Part shown: positions 274 to 55,901 of the stretch, in pieces
Layout of the letters: the number at the start of each line of letters is the position of its first letter
How positions within the stretch are numbered: position 1 is the stretch's first letter
The notes under the pieces: generated by a model
The model's input: the letters and a program-made list of their open reading frames with translations, nothing else
Told to the model about the DNA's origin: nothing
Databases searched by the model: none
Made by a program: the position numbers and the translations under genes
DNA from: Alcaligenes faecalis
Lineage (GTDB): Bacteria; Pseudomonadota; Gammaproteobacteria; Burkholderiales; Burkholderiaceae_B
Direction of reading: 5' to 3'
NCBI RefSeq assembly: GCF_009497775.1
Contig: NZ_CP031012.1
Location: forward strand, 3,189,235-3,253,234
DNA: 64,000 nt

Positions 274-1811
<1,538 letters not shown>

Positions 1812-2805: not shown

Positions 2806-2838
<33 letters not shown>

Positions 2839-2943
2839 GAAGAAGCAGGGAAATAGTGAAAAAGAAAAATGGAGAGATGGAGGACCAACAAAGGAACGCC
2901 AGTACGAACACTGCATCAGCCCTTCGCTCCAATCAACAGCGTC

Positions 2944-2953
2944 TCTATATAGA
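2944..2953. repeat. TCTATATAGA palindrome (site 2 of 6)
   Basis: Perfect 10-bp palindrome followed directly by TAGAGAG. Same motif as sites at 2751, 3272, 3315, 3334 and 3450. Confidence 0.6.
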
Positions 2954-3000
2954 TAGAGAGTTAAGTAGCCTCCAAGATCGAACACTATGCAGGGCTGCTA

Positions 3001-3235
3001 GCCACTCGGGGCCCCGGGACAGGGGGTTGGGGCGAGTCAGACGACTTGCCGCAGTCGGAGTCACCATCGGGGATGCAAGCAGTCTGCTGTTTGAGCCCAG
3101 CGTTTGTGATTGGTCCGGGGGACCAATCACTGGGCGAGTTCAGACTGCGCCCCGATGGTGACTTCGACAAAGGGACCGGCGCAACGCGCCGGCAAGTCGT
3201 CCGCCCCAACCCCCTGTCCCGGGGCTTCGAGTGGC
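3001..3235 (+). repeat. structured hairpin element, copy A
   Basis: A 235-base nested palindrome. Helices, from outside in: 3001-3034 with 3202-3235 (34 bp, two G-T); 3040-3050 with 3191-3201 (11 bp perfect); 3059-3072 with 3150-3163 (14 bp perfect); 3079-3086 with 3141-3148 (8 bp); 3095-3100 with 3130-3135 (6 bp); and a terminal hairpin 3106-3116/3120-3130 (11 bp, GGG loop). A side hairpin is at 3176-3182/3186-3192. Unpaired motifs ATGCAAGC, TGTTTGA, GAGTTCA, GCGCCC and GACAA are shared with copies B and C. It contains no plausible gene. Not recognised as a named family. Confidence 0.92.
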
Positions 3236-3271
3236 GACCTACATAGAGCGGCTGGAGCAATGAACGCCTCT

Positions 3272-3285
3272 CTCTATATATAGAG
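3272..3285. repeat. CTCTATATATAGAG palindrome (site 3 of 6)
   Basis: A 14-bp perfect palindrome, one TA step longer than the other sites. It is itself flanked by GCAATGA and TCATTGC about 10 bases away, which could form an outer arm. Confidence 0.55.
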
Positions 3286-3314
3286 GAGCCATTCATCATT
3301 GCGACTCTGCTCTC

Positions 3315-3344
3315 TCTATATAGATACGCTCACTCTATATAGAG
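3315..3344. repeat. two TCTATATAGA palindromes (sites 4 and 5 of 6)
   Basis: TCTATATAGA at 3315-3324 and CTCTATATAGAG at 3333-3344 lie with centres 19 bases apart, about two helical turns. This spacing would put both on one face of the DNA. Confidence 0.55.
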
Positions 3345-3449
3345 ACCAAAGACACCCTTACCTGATAGAGACACGCAGCTAGAGACACACAGCCAGAGCG
3401 GCACAAGCTCACCCACCGCAGAGCCACAAACAAAGCCCCTCCTATCTAC

Positions 3450-8904: not shown

Positions 8905-8910
8905 GTAGGT

Positions 8911-9128
8911 GCCCCACCATTGCCGTCAAGACCGGCATCCTGGAACCGAGGGTCCAAGATCGGCTGTCATCAAGCCAGCTTCGGGTTCGTCGACGAGGAC
9001 GATCGCTCCTACTGGCTAATCCAACAACCTGTATGCCAAAAGCATTGGTTCAAGGAATGTATGGTCGTGTCACGAACACGGCAGGGACTTACTGGGATGA
9101 AGCAACCCGCGAGGGACAACAAGGGGCT
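8911..9128 (-). ncRNA. ssrS: 6S RNA (approximate ends)
   Basis: The minus strand reads CATTCCTTGAACCAA followed by TACAGG, matching the 3' half of the 6S central region in Proteobacteria. The ends pair as GCCCC with GGGGC. It lies directly downstream of zapA on the same strand, the standard location of ssrS. 6S RNA mimics an open promoter and holds sigma-70 RNA polymerase in stationary phase. Boundaries come from outer pairing only. Confidence 0.8.
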
Positions 9129-24838: not shown

Positions 24839-25957
24839 ATGAAGCACAGAACACGCAATACCCGCAATCAGGCGCTGCGCTCGCCTGAGCAAAAGGAAGA
24901 TCGGCGCGGCTTGCTCATCGCCCTGGGTCTGCACGGGCTGTTGCTGCTCGCCATTTTGGCGGGAGCCCTTTTTTCTGCGCCCAAAACACCCAATGCGGTG
25001 CAGGTCGAATTGTGGATGGACGGTGTCGCGCCCGATGCGGCCGTCAATGCTGATCCCGAAGCCCCCGAGGCCGAACCCGAGCCGCAGCCTGAGCCTGAAC
25101 CGGCTCCAGAGCCAGAACCCAAGCCCGAACCCAAACCTGAGCCCCCTCCGGCTCCCAAGCCGCCTCCTGAGCCTGCCAAGGTCACGCCTCCTGCTGAACC
25201 CGAAGTTGATCCCGAGATCGCTTTGGAACAGGCTCGCAAAGAACGCGAGAAAAAAGAGCGTGAAGAAAAGCTGGAACAGGAACGTCAGGAAAAACAGCGT
25301 CAGGACAAACTAGCCGCTGAACGTCGCGAACGCGAACAGAAAGAAAAGCAGGAACAGGAACGCAAGGCCAAAGAAGCGGCCGAAGCCAAGGCCAAGGCCG
25401 ACGCTGATCGCAAGGCCAAGGAAGAAGCCGACGCAAAAGCCAAGGCCGATGCCGAGCGCAAGGCCAAAGCCGATGCAGAAGCCAAAGCCAAGGCAGACGC
25501 CGAAGCGAAAGCCAAAGCAGACGCTGAACGCAAGGCCCGTGCTGATGCCGCCGCCAAGGCCAAGGCTGATGCCGACCGCAAGGCCAAGGAAGAAGCATTC
25601 CGCCGCGCCATGCGTGAAGGTGCCCCTGGTCGTCCCGGTGGTACTGCAGACCGCAACCAGGCCGGTGGCGGTGGTGGTGATGGTGGCTATGCCGCCAAGG
25701 TGCGCGCTTGCGTGCAGCCTGGCGTGGTCTACAGCACCCCTGCCCGCTCCGAAGTACGCGGCAACCCTGCCCTGCAGTACCGCGTGGACCTGAATGCCGA
25801 TGGCACGCCTAACCGCGTTCAAATCAAACGATCGTCCGGCATCGCTCAGTTCGATGATGCCGTATCCAAGGGTCTTGCCCGTTGCAGCCCTTTCCCCAAA
25901 CCGCCTAGCGGGCAGTATCCATCGTATATTGATGGCGAATACCGCATGTTCGATTAA
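24839..25957 (+). CDS. tolA: Tol-Pal system protein TolA
   Basis: 372 residues. N-terminal membrane helix (about 24-45), a Pro/Glu/Lys-rich section (72-120), a long Ala/Lys/Asp/Glu coiled coil (about 125-260) built of KAKADAE-like repeats, and a C-terminal globular domain (about 280-372). It spans the periplasm to reach Pal and TolB. The DNA of the coiled coil (25370-25600) is internally repetitive and may vary in length between strains. A 50-base spacer with a GCCGGAT/ATCCGGC hairpin precedes it. Confidence 0.94.
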   Translation: MKHRTRNTRNQALRSPEQKEDRRGLLIALGLHGLLLLAILAGALFSAPKTPNAVQVELWMDGVAPDAAVNADPEAPEAEPEPQPEPEPAPEPEPKPEPKPEPPPAPKPPPEPAKVTPPAEPEVDPEIALEQARKEREKKEREEKLEQERQEKQRQDKLAAERREREQKEKQEQERKAKEAAEAKAKADADRKAKEEADAKAKADAERKAKADAEAKAKADAEAKAKADAERKARADAAAKAKADADRKAKEEAFRRAMREGAPGRPGGTADRNQAGGGGGDGGYAAKVRACVQPGVVYSTPARSEVRGNPALQYRVDLNADGTPNRVQIKRSSGIAQFDDAVSKGLARCSPFPKPPSGQYPSYIDGEYRMFD

Positions 25958-42129: not shown

Positions 42130-42235
42130 GGCTTGCGGGGGCGCCGGGCTTGACCACTTGCCGACGCTACGCGTCGGCAAGTGGTCAGAAAGGCAGGACG
42201 GGCGCATTCTGAACTCGCGCGATAGCTCGTCCATG
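42130..42235 (-). repeat. structured hairpin element, truncated half copy B'
   Basis: On the minus strand this matches the 3' half of copies A-C: GGACGAGC, GCGAGTTCA, ATGCGCCC, then a hairpin and the GGCAAGTGGTC strand. The 5' half is missing. The side hairpin, 7 bp in full copies, is here a perfect 16-bp stem (42152-42167/42171-42186). It lies head-on to copy B, 35 bases away. Confidence 0.75.
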
Positions 42236-42270: not shown

Positions 42271-42504
42271 GCCGCTCAAGCCGTCTGCCCCTGCCTCGGG
42301 GCGATTCAGACTGCTTGCCGCGGGCTGTTCTGGAATCCGGGATGCAAGCCCTGTGCTGTTTGAGCGGGACGCTTGTACTTGGTCCGGGGGACCAAGTACC
42401 CCGCGAGTTCACAGGGCGCCCGGATTCCAGAACAGACAAGGGTACCGGTGCGCAGCACCGGCAAGTAGTCAAGCCCCGAGGCAGGGGCAGACGGCTTGAG
42501 CGGC
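42271..42504 (+). repeat. structured hairpin element, copy B
   Basis: A 234-base nested palindrome. Outer arm 42271-42302 with 42473-42504 is 32 bp with no mismatch. Inner helices: 42309-42320/42459-42470 (one G-T), 42325-42341/42419-42435 (17 bp perfect), 42348-42355/42410-42417, 42364-42368/42400-42404, and 42375-42385/42389-42399 (11 bp, GGG loop). Side hairpin CCGGTGC-GCA-GCACCGG at 42445-42461. Same plan as copies A and C but different helix sequences. Confidence 0.92.
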
Positions 42505-55670: not shown

Positions 55671-55901
55671 GCCACTTGGAGCCCTGCCAGGGTGTCCGGG
55701 CTGAGCACTTGCCGGTGCTGCGCACCGGTGCCCTTGTCAGGAGATAGCTACGGGCGCACCCTGAACTCCCGGGGTGGTTCGTCCCCCGGACGAACCACAA
55801 GCGCCCCGGTCAAACAACAGGGTGCTTGCATCCCTACGCTATCTCCTGACCGCGGCAAGTACTCTGAATCGCCCCGACACCCTGGCAGGGCTCCAAGCGG
55901 C
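55671..55901 (-). repeat. structured hairpin element, copy C
   Basis: 231 bases, inverted relative to A and B. Outer arm 55671-55701/55871-55901 (29 of 31 paired). Inner helices: 55703-55714/55853-55864 (one G-T), 55736-55748/55838-55850 (13 bp perfect), 55756-55763/55818-55825, 55769-55774/55804-55809, and 55774-55784/55788-55798 (11 bp, GGG loop on the minus strand). Side hairpin 55712-55718/55722-55728. Same motifs as A and B on the minus strand. Confidence 0.92.

Follow-up and report, generated by a model that had tools for sequence, protein, structure and literature searches.

How do three segments of about 235 bases, scattered over one stretch of Alcaligenes faecalis DNA, come to share an elaborate seven-helix fold while the sequences of their stems differ? 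The stretch analysed here, called the window, is 64,000 nucleotides long. The original prediction placed copies A, B and C within it, and their coordinates, their helices and the complementarity of their outer arms are all confirmed (Table 1). It had also described helix 3 as perfectly paired in each copy, which needs correcting for copy C, where the helix is not paired to its end: a GTA/GTA internal loop separates GTCAGGAGATAGC from the closing GGG. The remnant B' is decayed in this genome, and its intact orthologous partner is present in a second genome of the genus (locus L133 of G008).

Table 1. Coordinates of the elements and of the copy A helices within the window
Feature	Position	Strand	Remarks
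Copy A, whole element	3001..3235	+	Outer arms 3001-3034 and 3202-3235, 94% complementary
Copy A, core	3031..3203	+	Model R1 match at G000:C1:3192265-3192437
Copy A, H2	3040-3048/3193-3201	+	
Copy A, H3	3056-3072/3150-3166	+	
Copy A, H4	3079-3086/3141-3148	+	
Copy A, H5	3095-3099/3131-3135	+	
Copy A, H6	3106-3116/3120-3130	+	
Copy A, H7	3176-3182/3186-3192	+	
Copy B, whole element	42271..42504	+	Core 42300-42472; outer arms 42258-42302/42473-42517, 87% complementary
B', remnant of minus-strand partner of B	~42147..42229	-	21.3 bits, E about 1; limits by eye
Copy C, whole element	55671..55901	-	Core 55701-55873; outer arms 55671-55701/55871-55901, 94% complementary

Of the three copies, A is upstream of a 16S rRNA gene, C is flanked by co-directional genes, and only B sits between convergent ones. 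The 16S rRNA is at window 275-1811 on the minus strand with two tRNAs adjoining, and 6S RNA is at 8907-9090, also on the minus strand. The surroundings of copy A (window 2806-3400) contain a TTGC array as well as several palindromes of the CTCTATATAGAGA type, with a similar flank at another copy in this genome (L021). Elsewhere, window 25361-25593 has tandem repeats of 24, 48 and 72 bases within a 372-aa reading frame rich in Ala, Lys and Glu, a composition like that of TolA-like proteins.

The three copies are members of a larger set. A blastn search with copy B finds 29 distinct full copies in this genome (G000, in which A, B and C are loci L023, L001 and L014), a thirtieth row being copy B matched to its own reverse strand. 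R1, a covariance model built from the 29 copies, recovers all of them with scores of 181-200 bits and adds the remnant beside B at 21 bits. The core is 173 bases long in 27 of the 29 and 174 in the other two, giving an almost gap-free alignment. H2 to H7, the six helices that make up the core, are paired across the 29 copies, and the outer arm is the seventh. The predicted RNA fold of copy B has an energy of -184.3 kcal/mol (z -14.6); for the reverse complement the value is -179 (z -16.1). A candidate kissing pair between GCAAG and CTTG bulges was rejected, as judged by eye it is lost outside the genus.

The expectation that stems change in step while pairing is kept is upheld. Counted on a structure (57 pairs, 1596 cells) that was drawn up manually from RNAalifold output, 97.6% of helix cells are paired across the 29 copies, and 43 of the 57 pairs have changed on both sides. 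The covariation score is 0.607, with controls far lower (a mean of 0.170 in shuffled alignments and at most 0.096 in slid controls); none of 500 shuffles reaches it, and among the five measures compared, 'further pair types' alone was matched, by a single shuffle. Distant matches aligned to the model have 90.4% of cells paired and a score of 0.568, in an alignment that is biased towards the model. Covariation is a standard argument for structured RNA and had been proposed as support here; it is present, but because copying between arms yields the same signal, covariation alone is not enough to establish an RNA.

Imperfect pairs differ between the strands. Since every G-T pair reads as an A-C mismatch on the opposite strand, symmetric mutation or copying predicts no asymmetry, and yet the read strands of 28 distinct copies have 46 G-T pairs and only 2 A-C pairs. 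The remaining mismatches number 36, and the middle of H3 accounts for 29 of these. The ratio is 29:1 in copies on the plus genomic strand and 18:1 in those on the minus strand (all 29 rows), 87:34 in the model-aligned distant rows, and, in the outer arms, 21:2 in G000, 16:5 in G008 and 14:7 in G004. The loops are conserved as well, with changes at 5.5% of their sites between G000 and G008 compared with 23.4% in the flanks, and they persist in 25 rows from beyond the genus. One strand, the read strand, thus seems to be selected to fold; RNA is the simplest candidate and single-stranded DNA an alternative.

The outer arms give a view of how pairing is maintained within a locus. There are 28 arm alleles among the 29 copies, with a median ungapped identity of 0.38 (0.73 in the core), so that other loci can hardly supply double changes. 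Nineteen orthologue pairs between G000 and G008, with 624 arm pairs, have 39 double changes and 27 single ones, and all 39 are from one Watson-Crick pair to another. If the arms were free to change at the 23.4% flank rate, about 34 doubles would be expected by chance, but most of these would not pair, and singles would exceed the number seen several-fold. A transversion is involved in 19 of the 39 doubles, as in 427 of 904 flank substitutions; one site (L022/L153) contributes 13 of the doubles, five with a transversion, and the remaining sites give 14 of 26. The other two comparisons, which are not independent of this one or of each other, give 12 doubles (10 with a transversion) and 27 singles for G000/G004, and 26 doubles (12 with a transversion, and one from G-T to A-C) and 28 singles for G008/G004. 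Compensation through G-T intermediates would be expected to favour transitions; the neutral-like mix observed points to arm-to-arm copying. The loss of matching single bases from the two arms (L018/L062 and L010/L139) also fits copying. Strong selection against single changes could be another source of many doubles. A precedent is provided by quasipalindromes, in which one arm templates the other and so brings an imperfect inverted repeat closer to perfection (PMC7202029).

Judged by flank similarity, units appear to have descended vertically at most of the sites compared: orthologues of 20 of the 29 copies are recognised in G008 (27 compared) and of 16 of the 29 in G004 (22 compared). At the site of copy C, G000 and six other genomes (G004, G008, G007, G002, G005 and G006) carry the element, which is absent from G001 and G009. 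Its outer arm is common to the orthologues, with matched changes; G000, G004 and G008 share a single type of inner hairpin, and G007, G002, G005 and G006 have a B-like one, the last having lost H5 and H6. Likewise, a 78-base tract spanning H4-H6 in G008 locus L137 is identical to that of the G000 copy L019 and unlike that of its orthologue L012. These observations indicate that hairpins are exchanged between copies. A four-gamete test on helix alleles finds three sets between H2 and H4, one between H2 and H5 and none elsewhere, which offers little support for free reassortment of helices. Selection on structure and arm-to-arm copying had been posed as alternatives; both find support, and the choice was too narrow, as three processes seem to lie behind the paired changes: one-strand selection, exchange of hairpins and copying between arms.

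A larger arrangement had escaped the original prediction. In the four genomes with full lists, 43 of the 44 neighbours lying within 1 kb of one another are divergent, with their 5' ends facing; the sole exception is a same-strand pair in G009, where the other 25 of 26 close neighbours are divergent. In this genome pairs with nearly fixed spacing are dispersed as two-module units of roughly 0.9-1 kb, the gaps between the 25 divergent partners being 155-161 bases (5), 184-193 (19) and 56 (1). The pairs often lie between convergent genes. The 24 sites in G000 for which a home-made and unbenchmarked gene caller gives a context are between convergent genes in 13 cases, co-directional in 9 and with a called gene on one side only in 2, against a background in the window of 7 convergent among 33 intergenic gaps. 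A pattern scan of named genomes, which yields at least 120 loci, agrees: of 98 classifiable elements 61 are in convergent, 29 in co-directional and 8 in divergent contexts, compared with 86, 210 and 96 respectively of 392 gaps at the same loci (element-holding gaps included). An arrangement of a different kind is seen in G005 (C1, about 3023230-3114621), in which three near-identical element pairs are exactly 45,250 bases apart, reflecting either a tandem triplication or an assembly error.

Evidence of how such units may have moved comes mainly from G009, the only genome in which terminal inverted ends are recognised, those of the window's clade being decayed. Ends like GGTTCTTCGAAG and its inverse adjoin T or A tracts at some loci; as a regular expression the motif occurs at 11 of 30 loci (two belonging to one unit and one being doubtful), with both ends at one locus. 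An 8-bp duplication, TTTTTTAT, is on both sides of L351, the one clean case, the other G009 units examined being imperfect. In the window's clade no clean empty site was found, the one candidate being a deletion in G000. A comparison of G008 with G000 at one site had suggested snap-back insertion, with one of the outer arms as old target DNA; this was dropped because six genomes including G008 carry the element there, so that G000 has the deletion.

The search for a mobilising enzyme has been negative where it was made. The Y1_Tnp domain of RAYT-type transposases is absent from all 10 genus genomes (controls were positive in 5 of 14), and the G009 spacers between partners, 56-193 bases long, encode no transposase. 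Full ISL3 transposases are present in G004 and G005, but the ISL3 ends, read in the G004 copies, are GGCTCTAC and not like the element ends GGTTCTTCGAAG, and an ISL3-type autonomous partner was rejected. Five near-identical ISL3-family insertions are found at G004 loci L366, L376, L379, L381 and L382, that at L382 beside a terminator-like T run and that at L366 with a duplicated end. Within 3 kb of the at least 120 pattern loci there are 501 predicted proteins, and ten sampled from recurrent clusters are transporters and enzymes, with no transposase; a linked protein family was likewise rejected, the largest cluster comprising 28 proteins at 18 loci, a median of 1.3 kb away, whose sampled members are transport proteins. 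A scan for promoters and terminators gave weak signals or none, with A+T peaking at 0.59 just upstream of 24 copies against 0.45-0.52 further upstream.

The family extends well beyond this genome, as the proposal that a covariance model would find many intergenic copies had anticipated. R1 matches nine of ten genus genomes, with 14 to 81 copies where present and none in G003. Within the family, among at most 11 candidates scored per genome, under strict filters and with rough E-values, it is found in 68 of 250 genomes, which represent 23 of 43 genera. Another 39 matches went into a second model, R2, which was used in the same way across the order on at most seven candidates per genome; it has matches in 54 of 399 genomes, from 29 of 159 genera, and 51 of these genomes lie outside the family. 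Among 41 rows for loci beyond the family, 30 contain the motif (A/C)TGTYYGAG followed by GAGTT, so that most, yet not all, of these are convincing relatives. Names on 80 of the at least 120 pattern rows are Alcaligenaceae genera, 'Alcaligenaceae bacterium' or 'Burkholderiales bacterium'; six genera were checked against the taxonomy, and we take the remaining genus names to belong to the Alcaligenaceae. The large repeat family is real and apparently unnamed. No known family had been recognised from the sequence, and that stands: searched against Rfam (release 15), the elements of the whole window have no match at the gathering score, and copy B yields only two chance-level rows at E up to 10. 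Full-text literature searches, judged by titles and the openings of abstracts and with thin coverage of subscription journals, returned no description of the element; the nearest published repeat is the Beta-proteobacterial repeat element (BRE).

Carriage by phages or plasmids was considered and rejected, as copy B has no blastn match in phage or plasmid records, with one viral contig as the exception: L338:1834-1995 (IMG/VR) carries a relative of the element (R2, 52.1 bits). Eight further viral contigs fit a loose pattern, and a stricter one matched none. For the distant copy L397, phages and E. coli give no match, and among plasmids there is one that matches its flank alone. The 3' flank of many distant Burkholderiales copies (L386-L412) is a GGGTGCCTTTTCTTTGGTTACTTTCTTTGGGCAAGCAAAGAAA-like hairpin of about 49 bases; a similar flank occurs at six places in a plasmid of Ilyobacter, of another phylum, and at the place inspected (L413:2501-2549) the identity is 90% and the model finds nothing alongside.

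The reading that we favour, and hold to be somewhat better than evenly probable, is an old, non-autonomous, MITE-like paired intergenic repeat whose modules are selected on one strand and whose stems are renewed by arm copying and hairpin exchange. Its fuller unit would consist of two modules of about 235 bases in divergent orientation, often with convergent genes on either side, and many single copies would be pairs that have lost a partner, as demonstrated for B and inferred for the others. Each module would be selected to fold as one strand, most likely as RNA. Changes arising in one arm would be transferred to its partner, with template switching in replication as the probable route, and hairpins would be swapped between copies through recombination, so that stem sequences turn over fast yet stay paired. 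Mobilisation would be by a transposase acting in trans. A bolder version, in which the folded read strand (RNA or single-stranded DNA) is itself the mobile form, its loops recognised by an enzyme encoded elsewhere and arm copying forming part of propagation, we consider distinctly improbable; if true, it would represent a new class of structure-recognised mobile element across the Burkholderiales.

Two rival accounts each explain part of the data. These could be non-coding RNA genes serving the host, their fold kept by ordinary compensatory evolution and their mobility incidental, as the loops conserved beyond the genus, the near-constant core length, the tolerance of G-T and not of A-C, and the many shared sites would all suggest. 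Set against this are the transversions in half of the outer-arm doubles, as in the flanks, the excess of doubles over singles in G000/G008, the absence of a clear promoter, and a copy number within the genus that runs from 81 down to zero in G003, so that a species can dispense with them; we regard this account as unlikely. The opposite extreme, purely DNA-level palindromes in which template switching alone keeps the arms alike, draws on the transition/transversion mix, the matched indels and the scarcity of mismatches in close-armed helices, where non-Watson-Crick pairs number 3 of 224 in H4, 1 of 140 in H5, 2 of 308 in H6 and 2 of 196 in H7, and are commoner in H3 (19 of 308) and H2 (27 of 252). 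The trend with closeness is uneven, at 30 of 84 cells in the middle of H3 and 0 of 84 in the adjoining GGG/CCC block. Such palindromes should show neither the 46:2 asymmetry, which holds for copies on both genomic strands, nor loops that change so much less than the flanks, and they are quite unlikely to be the whole explanation.

That the element is a form of the BRE of Bordetella and other Betaproteobacteria, compared here by description only, is very unlikely. BRE is described as a repeated, GC-rich, mostly intergenic element of Betaproteobacteria including Alcaligenaceae, of the same class, with up to 29 copies and suspected mobility, and its length of 75-91 bp brackets the about 83 bases from the end of H3 to H6 here (PMC3110155). 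It is shorter than the whole element. In that account, BRE copies at some loci form head-to-tail tandem arrays (VNTR) (PMC3110155), unlike the divergent neighbours seen here, and a motif scan of the examined loci finds no tandem inner hairpins.

Covering so many genomes without annotation, the repeat is a natural laboratory for setting selection on a fold against mutational copying between arms. Its double-change spectrum suggests that part of the covariation comes from copying, and its G-T/A-C asymmetry points to real single-strand selection; both tests could extend to other candidate structured RNAs with long hairpins. Among known systems, REP and BIME sequences are extragenic palindromes, often at gene 3' ends and in inverted pairs; the element here differs in its length of about 235 bases and its seven helices, and a REP/BIME system with RAYT was rejected on the absence of Y1_Tnp from the 10 genus genomes. 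RepRanger lists 3,552 REP candidates in A. faecalis, which are short palindromes of a generic kind (10-71 nt in E. coli) (PMC12306157). Bacterial MITEs are similarly short, non-autonomous, intergenic and palindromic (PMC10969869), and the candidate inverted ends and the single A/T-tract duplication in G009 would be MITE-like traits; the present units differ in having two multi-helix modules each, conserved internal loops, strand-specific selection and no autonomous partner found. Compared with the correction of quasipalindromes (PMC7202029), copying here apparently proceeds over evolutionary time and across a dispersed family whose loops are kept.
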